Shown here: in pieces, positions 46,332 through 51,599 of the stretch
How positions within the stretch are numbered: the first letter of the stretch is position 1
Layout: the number at the start of each line of letters is the position of its first letter
Origin: Flavipsychrobacter stenotrophus
GTDB lineage: Bacteria; Bacteroidota; Bacteroidia; Chitinophagales; Chitinophagaceae
Assembly: GCF_002954265.1 (NCBI RefSeq)
Contig: NZ_PPSL01000005.1
Location: 62,001 to 126,000, forward strand
Direction of reading: 5' to 3'
Length of the DNA: 64,000 nucleotides
Program-made: the position numbers and the translations under genes
Notes under the pieces: generated by a model
Databases searched by the model: none
Told to the model about the DNA's origin: nothing
What the model saw: only the letters and a program-made list of their open reading frames with translations

Positions 46332-47039
46332 ATGAGCAGAATATTTTCATTTATACTTAGCGTTCTTTTACTTGCTGCCGGCCATTCAATTGCGGCTACA
46401 GATACTGCCACTAAAAAGAAGGGAATGGTGCTGGTAATGCTTCACGCAGAGAAGAACAGACTTGAAGCAGCACGCAAAGTGAATAACACAGAATTATTTG
46501 CTACCATAGCGGCAGACGCAGAGCAAGTACGCATCCGCACGATTATGGATTTTACGGAGAATCTTGAATCGTACCCTGTATACTACATAATGGATAGCAA
46601 CTACGAAAAGATCTACCACAAGCAGTTTGATGGCATTGTGTTGAATGCTGATGGCAGCATAGCAACTGATGTAAAAATTGATACCGCGAAACCCAATTAT
46701 ATTCTTGCCTACTATGGCACCGGCGATTTTCAGACCTACTTCAACTCTCCACTTACCGAAAGCGATAAAGAAAAGTATCAGCAGGAAGGTGGCCGTACGC
46801 ATGGCATGGGACTAACTATATATAACAGTAAGTTTCACCAGCTGACACACTTTTATAAGATGGCCTATGCCAACCCAACAGTACTAACACTTGAAGAGGC
46901 GAAGAAGTTGCCGCACAACCGGACAAAAAGATATTTCTTTAAGTCTAAACAGCTTGAAATGGAGTACTATCCATTTGCTGACGAACTGGATAAAAGTTTC
47001 AAAAAGAAGACCAGAAGAGAAACTACCACGCCTTACTAA
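46332..47039 (+). CDS. Secreted protein of unknown function
   Basis: A 235-residue protein with signal peptide (MSRIFSFILSVLLLAAGHSIA). The mature part has KKGMVLVMLHAEKNRLEAARK, MDFTENLESYPVYYIMDSNYEKI and TPNYILAYYGTGDFQTY-like text. No catalytic motif is seen and I recognise no family. It may be related to the neighbouring methyltransferase only by position. Confidence 0.5.
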   Translation: MSRIFSFILSVLLLAAGHSIAATDTATKKKGMVLVMLHAEKNRLEAARKVNNTELFATIAADAEQVRIRTIMDFTENLESYPVYYIMDSNYEKIYHKQFDGIVLNADGSIATDVKIDTAKPNYILAYYGTGDFQTYFNSPLTESDKEKYQQEGGRTHGMGLTIYNSKFHQLTHFYKMAYANPTVLTLEEAKKLPHNRTKRYFFKSKQLEMEYYPFADELDKSFKKKTRRETTTPY

Positions 47040-47151: not shown

Positions 47152-47703
47152 ATGGCACGTTTAACAGCTATCAATCCTGAACAGGCTTCAGGCAAAACAA
47201 AGGAACTTTTTAATGCAGTGCAAAGTAAACTGGGTGTTGTTCCTAACATGATGAGGACAATGGGTAATGCACCGGCATTCCTTGAAGGCTACCTTAATCT
47301 TAGCGGTGCACTGGGCACCGGCAAGCTAGGTTTAAAAAACAGTAATCTTATAGCAATGGCAGTAGCAGAAAGTAACGCTTGTAACTACTGTCTGTCGGCC
47401 CATACTTACCTGGGCCTTAACCTTGCTAAGATAGATGAGGCAACACTTACAGACGCGCGTGACGGCATAGCTAAAGATGCAAAGACACAGGCAATACTGC
47501 AGTTTGCTAAGTTGGTAGTAGCCAAGCATGGTCAACTAAATGATGCAGATGTAGCTGCAGTAAAATTAGCAGGTGTGACCGATGGTGAAATTGCCGAGAT
47601 CATAGGCCACGTTGCGCTGAATATCATGACCAACTATTTCAATAACACTGCCGGTACTGTCATCGACTTCCCGGTTGTTGCAGCTCATGTAGCAACAGTC
47701 TAA
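47152..47703 (+). CDS. AhpD-like carboxymuconolactone decarboxylase family protein
   Basis: A 183-residue helical protein with the redox motif CNYCLSAH (Cys77, Cys80, His84), the CxxC...H of AhpD-type alkylhydroperoxidases. LIAMAVAESNACNYC and ITEIIGHVALNIMTNYFNNTAG-like text are also typical. It likely reduces peroxides with thiol partners, or is a related peroxidase of unknown substrate. It heads a plausible operon with DUF1348 and an AraC regulator; a hairpin at 47762-47793 may limit read-through. Confidence 0.85.
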   Translation: MARLTAINPEQASGKTKELFNAVQSKLGVVPNMMRTMGNAPAFLEGYLNLSGALGTGKLGLKNSNLIAMAVAESNACNYCLSAHTYLGLNLAKIDEATLTDARDGIAKDAKTQAILQFAKLVVAKHGQLNDADVAAVKLAGVTDGEIAEIIGHVALNIMTNYFNNTAGTVIDFPVVAAHVATV

Positions 47704-47761
47704 TATTTCTACTATAAACATATACATTTGATTGGCCCAAAGGCCGATCTTAGTGATAATC

Positions 47762-47793
47762 AAACAAGGCCATGCTATAGTATGGCTTTGTTT
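47762..47793 (+). terminator. Terminator or attenuator after the AhpD-like gene
   Basis: AAACAAGGCCAT / ATGGCTTTGTTT stem (one G-T pair) around an 8-nt loop. The T content after it is moderate, so partial read-through to the DUF1348 gene is likely. Confidence 0.6.
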
Positions 47794-47807
47794 AAAACTG
47801 TTCAACA

Positions 47808-48224
47808 ATGGAAAACAAAAGATATCCGCTACCTCCATTTACCATGGAGACTGCACTGCAAAAGGTACAGGCTGCAGAAGATGCATGGAATAGCAAAGAC
47901 CCCGAGAAAGTATCTCTTGCCTATACAGTGGATACTGAATGGAGGAACCGAACGGATTTTATAAATGGACGAGAGGAAGTAAAGAAGTTCCTGACAGGTA
48001 AGTGGGAAAGAGAACTTGACTACAAATTGAAGAAGGAGCTTTGGGGATTCCGAGAAAACCGTATGGCAGTGAGATTTGAGTATGAGTGGCACGATGCGAA
48101 TGGCCAATGGTATCGTAGTTATGGCAATGAAATGTGGGAATTTGATGAGAACGGGTACATGCAGAAACGCTTTGCAAGCATTAACGACATAGCTATTAGC
48201 CAAGCTGACCGCAAACTAAAATAA
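47808..48224 (+). CDS. DUF1348 (SnoaL-like) protein
   Basis: A 138-residue NTF2-fold protein: [40 protein letters not shown] and [20 protein letters not shown] are the DUF1348 pattern, a cystatin-like alpha+beta barrel. Function of this subfamily is unknown. It lies between the AhpD-like gene and an AraC regulator, 4 bp from the latter. Confidence 0.82.
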
Positions 48225-48228
48225 AAAC

Positions 48229-49113
48229 ATGAATACCACTACTCCACCGGCCAATGCTACGCTCATCAATCCGCAGAATGGGAATTTGGCATTTAAGCTG
48301 TTTTCATTCGACGACAATAGTCACTTCGACCATTTGCAGCGCAACAACTACTATTCGCTGATATGGATAACTGAGGGGGAAGGAATGGTAAAGGCTGATT
48401 TTTCGGAACATAAATTTGTGCCGGGTATGATGTTTGCGTTTTCGCCTTACCAACCTTTCATGATAGCAACGACAGCTATTAAAGGTACCGTCATACACTT
48501 TCATCCCGACTTCTTTTGCATACATAAACATCAGGCTGAAGTAGCCTGCAACGGAGTGCTGTTCAACAATATCTATGAACCGCCTTACATCTCTGTTGAC
48601 ATGAAAGCCGCTGCAACATTGACCATGATTGCCGAACAAATGAAAGAAGAAATACAAAATGCAGCCCTCGGTCAGTATGAACTATTAGTCTCTTACCTGA
48701 AGATATTCCTGATCACAGCTTCACGCATAAAAGTGGTGCAACAGCCACAAACGCTTGTAGAGCCCGATAATGTAAAAGAACCGTTTATTCTCAAAACGCT
48801 TATTGACAGTATCGAACAAAATTTCAAATCAAAACACTCTGCAAGTGATTATGCAGAGAGTCTCAACGTATCACCTAAGACCCTTGCCAAGATCACAAAG
48901 GCGCACTTCAACAAAACCATTACTGGTCTTATAGCTGAGCGTATAATCATAGAAGCAAAACGAGAGCTATACCTGACTAACAAAACGGTAAAAGAAATAG
49001 CATGGGAACTCGGCTACCAGGATGAATACTATTTCAGCCGCTTCTTTAAAACCAATGCAGATATCTCTCCACAGATCTATAGGGAAACTGTAGGATTTGG
49101 AAGAGGAGCCTAA
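48229..49113 (+). CDS. AraC family transcriptional regulator
   Basis: A 294-residue protein. The C-terminal double HTH is at about 190-290: SASDYAESLNVSPKTLAKIT and KTVKEIAWELGYQDEYYFSRFF, ending in ISPQIYRE. The N-terminal part (YYSLIWITEGEGMVKADFSE, FVPGMMFAFSPYQPFM) is a cupin-like effector domain. It probably controls its own operon with the AhpD-like and DUF1348 genes upstream (4 bp gap). The effector is not known. Confidence 0.9.
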   Translation: MNTTTPPANATLINPQNGNLAFKLFSFDDNSHFDHLQRNNYYSLIWITEGEGMVKADFSEHKFVPGMMFAFSPYQPFMIATTAIKGTVIHFHPDFFCIHKHQAEVACNGVLFNNIYEPPYISVDMKAAATLTMIAEQMKEEIQNAALGQYELLVSYLKIFLITASRIKVVQQPQTLVEPDNVKEPFILKTLIDSIEQNFKSKHSASDYAESLNVSPKTLAKITKAHFNKTITGLIAERIIIEAKRELYLTNKTVKEIAWELGYQDEYYFSRFFKTNADISPQIYRETVGFGRGA

Positions 49114-49123
49114 TCTTTACACC

Positions 49124-49789
49124 TTACTGTTTCTTCAGACGCTTTAATCCTATTTCCTTCCTGGCTTTATTGGTAGCCTCAAGGTCTTCAGGCTGTTTGA
49201 TGGCAGCAGTTTTAGTAGTGGTGCTGTAGTATTTAGTAACGTGGTATAACTCGGGCAGTTTACGATAGTTCTGTAACCCATCATATATAACTGCGTACTC
49301 AAATCTGGGAAAATGCTTGTCTTGTACCTCCTGCTTTAACAACGCCAGGAGACCATCGGTTATCATATCGGGCGTATGGTCGAGAATAATGGAAACATGT
49401 CCTGGCATTATGCTATGCGGAACACCATACTTATAGAGTATCGAAGATAATCTGCTGAAATTCTCAGAATCAATATGCACTTGAAGCTTCCACAAGGAAT
49501 CTTTGACAGCCTGTGTAATACCCACCTTATTTGCCCTTGCCTGTTGCATTCTAACCGATTGGTCTTGCTTACTCATACTCCTCAAGACCTTTAGCTTCTG
49601 CCCGTCTGTTTCGCCGTACATGAGCATCCAGCGATACTTCTGATCATTAGCAACCATTATGTCTATTTCCATTTTCAGACTATCCTGTTGTGCTTTGCTA
49701 AATGGCTGTAGCACTTTATACTGTGCGGTAGAGATGAGGGAGGAAGACAAAAGTGTAAGCAATAAAAGGAGCAGTTTACCTGTGTTCAT
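49124..49789 (-). CDS. Secreted protein, DUF6624-like
   Basis: Start at MNTGKLLLLLLTLLSSSLIS with cleavage near TAQ; the open frame continues 72 bp upstream. 221 residues. The region DQKYRWMLMYGETDGQKLKV, then DPSV-like SMSKQDQSVRMQQARANKVG and ARKEIGLKRLKK at the end resembles DUF6624, a tentative recollection. No signature catalytic residues known. It is the first gene left of the small-RNA cassettes, but has its own orientation and signal. Confidence 0.5.
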   Translation of the reverse strand: MNTGKLLLLLLTLLSSSLISTAQYKVLQPFSKAQQDSLKMEIDIMVANDQKYRWMLMYGETDGQKLKVLRSMSKQDQSVRMQQARANKVGITQAVKDSLWKLQVHIDSENFSRLSSILYKYGVPHSIMPGHVSIILDHTPDMITDGLLALLKQEVQDKHFPRFEYAVIYDGLQNYRKLPELYHVTKYYSTTTKTAAIKQPEDLEATNKARKEIGLKRLKKQ

Positions 49790-49859
49790 TGTGCAGGAAT
49801 TAAAGTGAAAACCTAAAATAGTACAATTCAGCAAAAGAATATACAGACCTGGTACAAAC

Positions 49860-49982
49860 AAAAAAGCCTGTCTAAGAATAGACCGGCCCTTATAAACCCT
49901 ATCACCATGAAAACCTCTTTATATTAAAGCCTTGCGGCAAAAGAAATATATTTATTGTTGGTAATCTTTATTGCGTTTTGAT
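49860..49982 (-). ncRNA. Putative small RNA gene, copy A
   Basis: Minus-strand unit of about 123 nt. The -7 element TACTTTTA (plus strand TAAAAGTA, 49990-49997) predicts a start near 49982. The 3' end is a hairpin, GCC-G-GTCTA / TAGAC-A-GGC with loop TTCT (49866-49887), followed by six T. The conserved block AAGAGGTTTTCATGGTGATAGG lies before the hairpin. A TTCACCCC box is 52 bp upstream of the -7 (49 to 56 of 50049-50056). Two more copies follow. No conserved protein is encoded. Confidence 0.6.
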
Positions 49983-50108
49983 TACAGTGTAAAAGTACAA
50001 CATGTACCTACGTGTAATGAAATAAATGAGATGAACGACCAAATAATAGGGGTGAAAATAAATTGAGTTTATTATAGTTTTAAGTCTGGAGCTAGCTGCT
50101 GAATATAC

Positions 50109-50564
50109 TTAGTTGCACCGATCTAAATCTACCTGATCAAAATTAAAGGACCGATACTTCTCCCTATTTTTTAAGGTATCAACAAAAAACTCTTCTACGT
50201 CTTTGTAATCAACATTCCCAACCCCAAAACCACCGAGTCCTCTATTAAAGATAAAAATGCCATTCTGCGGGAGACTATCCACTTTTGAATAATCCTTGAG
50301 GAAGGTGATTGTGTCTGCACTACTACCCAAGGTAGGATTATCGCTGTAACAAAACTTAAAGTAATCTTCTTCCGCATCACTAGAAACAATACCGTAAAGC
50401 GCGGTAAATTGAGTTTTTAGTATTCCACATGCCGGTATCCTCAAAATTCTCCTTCCATCTTTTGTGTATTCAGTCTTAACACCCTTTTGCTGGTTATATA
50501 TGATGGCTATGCGCCCGATGTAGCCCTCAGGAACAATAAGTATAAATAACCGGCTTACGCGCAT
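50109..50564 (-). CDS. DUF6843-like protein, possibly 5'-truncated
   Basis: A 151-residue frame: VPEGYIGRIAIIYNQQKGVK, then GRRILRIPACGILKTQFTAL. The P.GY.G.v.I.Y and iP..GIL.T patterns recall DUF6843, a small domain normally carried on secreted or lipoproteins. Here the frame starts almost at the domain and an in-frame stop lies two codons upstream, so a signal peptide is missing. It may be a remnant or use a start not seen. It sits between copies A and B of the small-RNA cassette. Confidence 0.5.
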   Translation of the reverse strand: MRVSRLFILIVPEGYIGRIAIIYNQQKGVKTEYTKDGRRILRIPACGILKTQFTALYGIVSSDAEEDYFKFCYSDNPTLGSSADTITFLKDYSKVDSLPQNGIFIFNRGLGGFGVGNVDYKDVEEFFVDTLKNREKYRSFNFDQVDLDRCN

Positions 50565-50644
50565 ACGCTACTGATGGATACGATTGATACAAGTATTATG
50601 AATCTAAACTTAAATACTCAGCTGTAGCACCATTGTGTAGGTAC

Positions 50645-50765
50645 AAAAAAAAAGCTAGTCTAAGAATAGACCAGCCCCTATAAACCTATCACTATGAAAA
50701 ACTTTATATTGAATGCTTAGCGCACAATAAAATCGTTTTTGTGTATTCTTTAGTTTCCTATCGAT
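50645..50765 (-). ncRNA. Putative small RNA gene, copy B
   Basis: About 121 nt. -7 TACTTTTA at 50773-50780; hairpin GCTGGTCTA / TAGACTAGC with loop TTCT at 50654-50675, nine T after it. The TTCACCCC box is at 50832-50839, 52 bp above the -7. The ATG seen in copies A and C is replaced (TAGTGATAGG), which argues against a conserved peptide. Confidence 0.6.
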
Positions 50766-50888
50766 TACAATGTAAAAGTACGAAAGAGTTTCATAAAAAA
50801 GTCTTAAAATGACACGAAATATTTAAAAAATGGGGTGAATTATTTTCGTGTAAAATAATAGGCACATCCAGATTAATTACCGGTAAAT

Positions 50889-51013
50889 AAAAAAGCCGAT
50901 CTAAGAATAGATCAGCCCCTATAAACCCTATCACCATGAAAACCTCTTTATGCTAAATGCCCTGCGGCACAAGTAAATCATTTTTATTTTGTAACCTTTC
51001 GTTCCCTGCTGAT
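50889..51013 (-). ncRNA. Putative small RNA gene, copy C
   Basis: About 125 nt. Promoter TTTG (51049-51052), 20 bp, TACTTTTA (51021-51028), an almost perfect consensus. Hairpin GCTGATCTA / TAGATCGGC with loop TTCT at 50895-50916, then six T. TTCACCCC box at 51079-51086. The third stem pair is C-G in copy A, T-A in B and T-G in C, so base pairing is kept while sequence changes. Confidence 0.65.
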
Positions 51014-51206
51014 TACAATGTAAAAGTACAACGCCATTTATCTTCTTACAAATAAATGAGATTAACGCCAAGAAAATAGGGGTGAATTAAAAGAGCTTTC
51101 GCCACAATTTTGTGGGACACATTTTGAAGTTATTGAAGAGTGCGGCCCAAGCAATAGAATACGTATTGTGGAAAGAATACTATTGCATATTCAGCCCGCC
51201 ATGCCT

Positions 51207-51599
51207 TTAGTTGACCAGGTATGTTCCAAATACCAGGAGAGGAATAAGAAAAGGTAATGCAAAGGAGAACCAAAAGCCGGCATTAAACAGATTAACTCTG
51301 AACTGATGGTGGTTATCTTTATTAAACAGCCGATCAAGAAAGTTCCCCAAATAATAAAAAACGTTTGCGACCCCAATCATTGTAAGATAACCAATTCCCT
51401 GAAGAAAAGTAGCAATCCCATTTATTTCAAAATCCGGTTCGTAAGGTGCAATGAAGTAGGTGGCAATTAAACAGTAGCATAAGAAGGCAAAGATGCCTGC
51501 AACTACTAATCCAATATTGTATTTTATTCTTTTCGCAGCCCACCAGGCTTTCGCCGTTGGTTCTGTTGGCTCTTCAAGTATTTCGATAGTGGAAGTCAT
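51207..51599 (-). CDS. Three-span membrane protein of unknown function
   Basis: A 130-residue protein. After a charged N-terminus (MTSTIEILEEPTEPTAKAWW) come three helices: IGLVVAGIFAFLCYCLIATYFI, FLQGIGYLTMIGVANVFYYLG and FWFSFALPFLIPLLVFGTYLV. No family recognised. An imperfect inverted repeat GCAATAG...CTATTGC lies past its stop codon. Confidence 0.55.
   Translation of the reverse strand: MTSTIEILEEPTEPTAKAWWAAKRIKYNIGLVVAGIFAFLCYCLIATYFIAPYEPDFEINGIATFLQGIGYLTMIGVANVFYYLGNFLDRLFNKDNHHQFRVNLFNAGFWFSFALPFLIPLLVFGTYLVN

Follow-up and report, generated by a model that had tools for sequence, protein, structure and literature searches.

Within the window, i.e. the whole stretch of 64,000 nucleotides from Flavipsychrobacter stenotrophus that was analysed, three related units were found on the minus strand, here named A (50056-49860), B (50839-50645) and C (51086-50889). 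Each unit is composed of the octamer TTCACCCC, a spacer of 50-51 nt, the element TACTTTTA, a variable leader of approximately 70 nt, a core and a terminator hairpin, in this order (Table 1). TACTTTTA is referred to as -7-like on the basis of TAnnTTTG, which we take to be the -7 consensus of Bacteroidota. The core TTTTCATRGTGATAGGGTTTATARGGGC was almost invariant among the three copies, B being shorter by one G. Its general form is TTTTCATRGTGATAGG(G)TTTATARGGGC, followed by a hairpin with a TTCT loop and a T-run. A repeat finder recovered the three copies as the families D1, D2, D3 and D5 with matching spacing, and a three-way alignment gave a mean column identity of 81% over 235 columns. These results bear out a preliminary description of this DNA, which had proposed three units of about 200 bp sharing order and spacing; the -7 element, the constant TTCT loop and the T-run on the minus strand that it named were found in all three copies. 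Three features were missing from it, namely the octamer at its fixed place, the additional copies elsewhere in the genome, which lay beyond the DNA it covered, and the fact that conservation is highest in the single-stranded core and not in the hairpin.

The third stem pair is C-G in A, T-A in B and T-G in C, exactly as had been claimed, and copy A has a G.A mismatch at the pair next to it. When the minus strand was folded and compared with shuffled sequences, z-scores of -1.56 (A), -3.44 (B) and -2.08 (C) were obtained, so that the fold energy by itself is only mildly unusual. The structure of the leader was weak with broken pairs, and in the single-sequence folds of A and C the core was partly paired with it. 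From the promoter-like and terminator-like sequences, transcripts of approximately 122-126 nt are predicted for the three copies.

Table 1. Positions of the three units and of the neighbouring ORFs in the window
Feature	Position	Strand	Basis or remark
130-aa ORF upstream of copy C	51207..51599	-	protein alike by eye upstream of the triplet in the same-genus genome G583
Copy C, upstream octamer TTCACCCC	51079..51086	-	conserved; 50 nt before -7 element
Copy C, -7-like element TACTTTTA	51021..51028	-	sequence match
Copy C, predicted transcript	50889..51014	-	start placed about 7 nt past the -7 element (inference)
Copy C, core/putative seed TTTTCATGGTGATAGGGTTTATAGGGGC	50915..50942	-	antisense to start-codon context
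Copy C, terminator hairpin, TTCT loop, T-run	50889..50920	-	sequence, fold, covariation
Copy B, octamer TTCACCCC	50832..50839	-	51 nt before -7 element
Copy B, -7-like element TACTTTTA	50773..50780	-	sequence match
Copy B, predicted transcript	50645..50766	-	inference
Copy B, core, CATA type, one G deleted	50674..50700	-	same deletion in the matching copy of G583
Copy B, terminator hairpin and T-run	50645..50679	-	sequence, fold
151-aa ORF between copies B and A	50109..50564	-	Pfam DUF6843, 36.7 bits, cut-off 27
Copy A, octamer TTCACCCC	50049..50056	-	51 nt before -7 element
Copy A, -7-like element TACTTTTA	49990..49997	-	sequence match
Copy A, predicted transcript	49860..49983	-	inference
Copy A, core/putative seed	49886..49913	-	sequence, conservation
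Copy A, terminator hairpin, one G.A mismatch	49860..49891	-	sequence, fold

Scanning the window against Rfam, as had been suggested, gave five tRNAs as the sole matches at gathering threshold. The units had been thought to represent either a new family or a known one such as Flavo-1, a Bacteroidota RNA motif described as having no known function (PMC9723704). No Rfam family matched the units at gathering threshold; Flavo-1 was rejected, as it gave no match at E<=10 on 49800-51150 and none at gathering in the whole window. By E-value the best match on the stretch of A-C was L20_leader (27.6 bits, E 0.0059, gathering 58.7), which recurs on homologues. Its scores are similar to those of FopS and fall on the terminators. 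It was judged to be due to chance, since its alignment on copy B covers the terminator and a U-rich stretch and no ribosomal-protein gene was present among the scanned neighbours of A-C. A literature search by title and abstract, with most subscription journals and preprints outside its coverage, returned no paper on the family.

To search for homologues we used a covariance model, here named R1, built on A, B, C and two further copies. Together with a DNA search it revealed five full copies in the own genome: A-C and two tandem copies at C15:897037-897234, flanked by infC on one side and on the other by a gene encoding a 10-bladed propeller domain (L001:1031-1270). Weaker copies were present as well. 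A copy without T-run lies behind a secreted-protein gene at C13:151447 and a degenerate one, likewise without T-run, at C4:5423; the remaining R1 matches were weak (E 0.0038 and up). In the two copies without T-run (L002:948-1006 and L003:924-974) the core is kept in full or in part. Such copies are possibly decaying, or the L002 copy is possibly part of a 3' UTR.

The search of same-family genomes proposed in the preliminary description yielded R1 matches at E<=1e-3 in 55 of 195 genomes, the own one included, belonging to 33 of 101 genera, with up to 9 matches per genome; at this threshold 140 of the 195 had none. At E<=1e-8 the genomes with matches numbered 36 of 195, counted by hand and again including the own genome. 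Because of the stricter filters and of an upper limit on the candidates scored, the genome counts from the R1 and FopS model searches are lower bounds. In a sample of the class, 3 of 295 genomes had a match at 1e-4: the own genome, one of the same family and one weak match elsewhere. The latter (L209), the sole one outside the family, does not resemble the core. An exact-core scan of named genomes gave at least 118 stretches. Among the 80 listed, the titles included Taibaiella helva, T. lutea, T. soli, T. koreensis, Flavipsychrobacter MAGs and Chitinophagaceae bacteria; both genera belong to Chitinophagaceae according to the NCBI taxonomy. Some listed titles named other taxa (a Phycisphaerales, an Azovibrio and a Bacteroides MAG), which we assumed to be mislabelled bins. 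Tandem copies 100-300 nt apart were found among the listed stretches.

The gene infC was located upstream in 101 of 298 neighbour records (57 loci), and the same propeller-type secreted protein downstream in 103 of 298 (60 loci). These counts comprise the window, L001, L002 and L062-L170, leaving out L171-L208, and the loci are not independent, as one genome may appear under two names. Since both neighbours are frequent, the tandem pair behind infC is regarded as a conserved locus. Besides it there is a second locus, the window triplet, for which G583 has a matching triplet carrying TTCACCCC.

That pairing in the stem is kept while its sequence varies was anecdotal from three copies and became solid on the homologues. 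For this analysis 54 matches comprising 50 distinct sequences were taken from an alignment fitted to the model, with a nearly ungapped stem region. Paired were 98.9% of the 635 stem cells, compared with 63.0% at most in controls in which the stem was slid. Two-sided changes occurred at 5 of 13 stem pairs; the shuffled mean was 1.8, and 5 was reached in 0 of 500 shuffles. Upstream of the stem, the core was nearly invariant among the aligned homologues.

Among the relevant families of Rfam, FopS (RF04319) comes closest, although below threshold. Its model scored 26.9 bits on B, 26.0 on C and 20.9 on A (E 0.15, 0.22 and 2.1 over all Rfam; gathering 56), and on 19 homologue loci it gave four matches with E 6-10, all on copies of the window family. 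By the gathering rule of Rfam the window family is not FopS. The FopS cut-off was exceeded in 12 genomes of the 395 from the class and in none of the 294 from the same family. FopS is described as highly conserved within Bacteroidaceae (PMC11697453). In B. thetaiotaomicron, FopS-10 is reported to bind beside the susC start codon and to block translation, with RbpB relieving the block (PMC11697453).

The window family resembles FopS in being multicopy, in a UUUUUCAUrGU seed that is single-stranded and precedes an intrinsic terminator (according to predicted and consensus folds) and in a motif of the TAnnTTTG type, which in many copies directly precedes the seed. Furthermore, an RRM protein is encoded in the genome (one RRM_1, 65.8 bits). 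UUUUCAU(G/A)GU is common to both seeds, a likeness that was equalled in 0 of 1000 shuffles for the CATG type of the core and in 40 of 1000 for the CATA type. Beyond CAU, however, the window seed reads GUGAUAGGGUUUAUAGGGG and that of FopS AUUAGAUUUAAGGUUAA. The window family also differs by its shorter linker, by the tandem pairs behind infC and by a lower copy number (five full copies plus weaker ones, compared with the 12-15 reported for Bacteroides). In the window copies the seed follows the leader of approximately 70 nt and TTCACCCC is present. Two further known RNAs were considered. The Rfam consensus of GibS (RF04182) opens with an UUUUUCAU seed like FopS, and copy B matched it with 22.6 bits, but far below the gathering value of 115, with many unpaired positions and no second seed identified. 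Rfp18 of Flavobacterium, another sRNA from Bacteroidota, is reported to have protease mRNAs as its targets; it differs in that its pairing region is described as lying in a third stem-loop (PMC9723704).

FopS-like RNAs were found elsewhere in Bacteroidota as well. A second Chitinophagaceae family with TTTTCATAGGATAAGGTTTAA and a terminator, belonging to other genera, was present in 11 of the 20 listed sub-threshold rows, representing 11 genomes of 7 genera (L266, L357-L360, L362, L363 and L366-L369, around 1501); here TTTTCATAGGATAAGGTTTAA was mostly followed by the conserved extension TGGTTAATGGTATTTGATTAG. L266, from the same-family genome G034, is intermediate. Its resemblance to the window core was equalled in 0 of 1000 (CATA) and 3 of 1000 (CATG) shuffles and that to FopS in 1 of 1000, with an R1 score of just 19.9 bits. 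In G441, from another family of the class, five copies with TTTTTTTCATAGATTTGGATTTGG and its variants were located (L277, L278, L279, L280), and TAnnTTTG was present in 2 of the 4 with upstream DNA. Single examples occurred elsewhere. The cores are lineage-specific in that UUUUCAU is kept and the remainder changes. The remaining sub-threshold FopS rows lay in coding sequence, were unreadable or looked like chance; L264, L356 and L361 count neither for nor against, as their contigs end nearby and the matches were not relocated. The idea of a covariance model for the whole superfamily was given up in view of the poor alignment of linkers and hairpins.

FopS may be one of several branches within a class of anti-start-codon sRNAs that spans the Bacteroidota, a generalisation that we put forward tentatively and hold slightly more doubtful than plausible. 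Each lineage would keep UUUUUCAU over the AUG together with a terminator, and would have a multicopy family of its own, whose seed extension would fit the start context found in the secreted-protein genes of that lineage. The four branches would be the window family, the second Chitinophagaceae family (UUUUCAUAGGAUAAGGUUUAAUGG...), the f69 family and FopS. The occurrence in Chitinophagaceae of a FopS-like family whose seed is nearly invariant yet different, here in a genome with only one SusC over cut-off, suggests that multicopy anti-start-codon sRNAs may be older or wider in the phylum than sugar foraging in the gut. Resources gained for their study are the covariance model, two copy types, the conserved locus behind infC, a candidate regulator site and genera with named isolates such as Taibaiella.

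In agreement with the preliminary description, A, B and C would best be read as three members of a multicopy sRNA family, a reading to which the homologues, the compensatory stem changes, the promoter-like motif and the lack of conserved coding point. We consider it probable that they are paralogous genes of a clade-specific, trans-acting family which is built, and probably works, like FopS of Bacteroides. The mostly unpaired core is the complement of a translation-start context, CCCCUAUAAACCCUAUCACYAUGAAAA. Given this complementarity, the pairing of FopS-10 at the susC start and the encoded RRM_1 protein, pairing in trans at start codons may be assumed by analogy. The RNA would be transcribed from A-C, and UUUUCAURGUGAUAG would base-pair with the start-codon regions of mRNAs, likely those of secreted or outer-membrane proteins. 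Ribosome entry would thereby be blocked and translation start repressed, and an RRM protein of the RbpB kind might bind the sRNA and modulate the repression.

Complementarity tests support such start repression in trans weakly and are partly negative, with no target named. When the core complement was moved through 25 shifts relative to the starts of 596 genes, the mean was highest at shift 0, which also gave the largest number of genes with at least half of the positions matching (21, next 16). In register, at least 11 positions matched in 102 genes as compared with 82 (sd 6) in column shuffles, and at least 15 in 2 versus 1.6. With matching confined to positions upstream of the AUG, the observed mean was reached by 1.2% of shuffled targets and the tail of >=10 by 1.4%, but at >=12/20 a single gene was found versus 1.6 in shuffles, 77.8% of which were as high. 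A seed swapped in from the second family equalled the own seed at the own gene starts (12 of 596 each at >=14/25; at >=15/25, 6 genes of 596 with the swapped versus 4 with the own seed). Since this control is equal, the tests do not discriminate.

A genome-wide search with an 18-mer allowing 2 mismatches found 17 sites, including 6 that are sRNA copies, versus 10 in the reversed control. Compared with internal ATGs, starts gave weaker duplex energies (29 of 596 versus 36 of 497 at -20 kcal/mol). Among the SusC/TonB-type loci, 26 of 28 had an ATG start; the best match was 15/25 and none was outstanding by eye. As only one protein among these 28 matches was over the SusC cut-off in the own genome, the target class of FopS may not apply here. 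In the FopS-bearing genome G226, serving as positive control, a start was available in 28 of 30 SusC loci and the matches were likewise just partial, without a computed background. For the 12-mer TATCACYATGAA, 27 distinct non-sRNA sites were listed from stretches of 11 same-genus genomes. By our judgement six of them fall on gene starts, each followed by an N-terminus resembling a signal peptide, versus approximately four expected by a hand estimate, i.e. no excess. One start, of a small secreted protein in L249 around 10059 (own genome, C18:90061), is perfectly complementary to the CATA-type core over 12 nt. This protein matched the N-terminal part of the SusC/TonB family. It is the best single target candidate, not significant alone.

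The conservation of the core exceeds by far that of any complement seen at gene starts. This would fit units that are sRNAs with a core acting mainly as binding site for the RRM protein; the RNA would then be a sponge or decoy and would not act by pairing with mRNAs. One RRM_1 protein is encoded in the genome, and in B. thetaiotaomicron the top RbpB CLIP motif is reported to have led to the FopS family, with RbpB binding FopS-10 (PMC11697453). Yet the core is the complement of the start codon and its context, the start register was highest, if weakly, and UUUUCAU is the part kept by the lineage-specific cores. We therefore consider a sponge unlikely, though it is the alternative that fares best.

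The arrangement of promoter-like motifs bears on the next alternative. In 33 of 65 distinct CATA copies TAnnTTTG begins at a distance of exactly 14 nt upstream of the core, whereas the second most frequent distance was found in 4 copies. With a spacing of 14 nt the RNA would have the core at its 5' end, like FopS. Of 108 CATG copies, 41 had the motif 49-59 nt and 10 had it 10-15 nt upstream. Within 8-70 nt no TAnnTTTG was found in 39 of the 108 CATG and 26 of the 65 CATA copies. TTCACCCC followed by TAnnTTT within 44-58 nt occurred 3 times in 800 kb of the own genome on both strands, these cases being A, B and C; the octamer itself was found 22 times versus 12 for the reversed control. It also lies 49-52 nt from the -7 element in the three units of G583, and thus in 6 of 6 units of both genomes. 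One unit of G166 carried the octamer with the matching -7 element absent. We regard TTCACCCC as a candidate regulator binding site, which probably separates the three window copies from those behind infC.

A unit could also be merely a strong intrinsic terminator or a dispersed extragenic repeat that gives no trans-acting RNA. Hairpin and T-run are present in A-C and in nearly all aligned homologues, many units lie between same-strand genes, e.g. behind infC, and about one third of the copies have no promoter-like motif nearby. Against this, the best conserved part is the single-stranded core of 27 nt outside the hairpin, the promoter-like motif is kept at one distance in half of the CATA copies and at 49-52 nt from TTCACCCC in all units of the two triplets, two own-genome copies retain the core without T-run, and tandem copies 100-300 nt apart would be redundant as terminators. 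This explanation appears somewhat less likely still than the sponge.

With respect to coding, 173 distinct copies were kept for analysis, leaving out duplicates and copies within 40 nt of the stretch start or within 70 nt of its end; the search pattern excludes the deletion of copy B, and loci L004-L061 and L210 onward were unused. An ATG was present at the putative peptide start in 108 of the 173 (CATG type), and the frame was open through the 70 nt read in 103 of the 173, which would accord with a short hydrophobic peptide (M/I-VIGFIGAGLFSGWLF...) as product, but is no more than expected of an almost invariant sequence. The other 65 had ATA instead of ATG (CATA type), and the one-base core deletion common to copy B and its G583 counterpart shifts the frame. 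Moreover, most changes in the 3' arm, among them TGG to TAG, affect the first or second codon position and are compensated on the paired 5' arm; in total 152 distinct peptide strings resulted. The earlier claim that coding is not conserved was thus upheld; a conserved peptide is unlikely, and we give very little credence to a peptide product.

Spread as a mobile or MITE-like element, which the multicopy, dispersed and tandem occurrence might suggest, is just as improbable, as 0 of 10 listed inverted-repeat pairs flank a unit, the infC pair and the triplet are syntenic between genomes and exact core matches in viral contigs numbered 0.

In G583 the DNA that separates the corresponding copies contains no ORF of >=60 aa. 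The DUF6843 ORF and the genes between copy A and a 235-aa ORF (46332-47039), i.e. window 47152-50564, were not seen at the matching place in 2.4 kb of that genome, a difference that reflects either an insertion here or a loss there.
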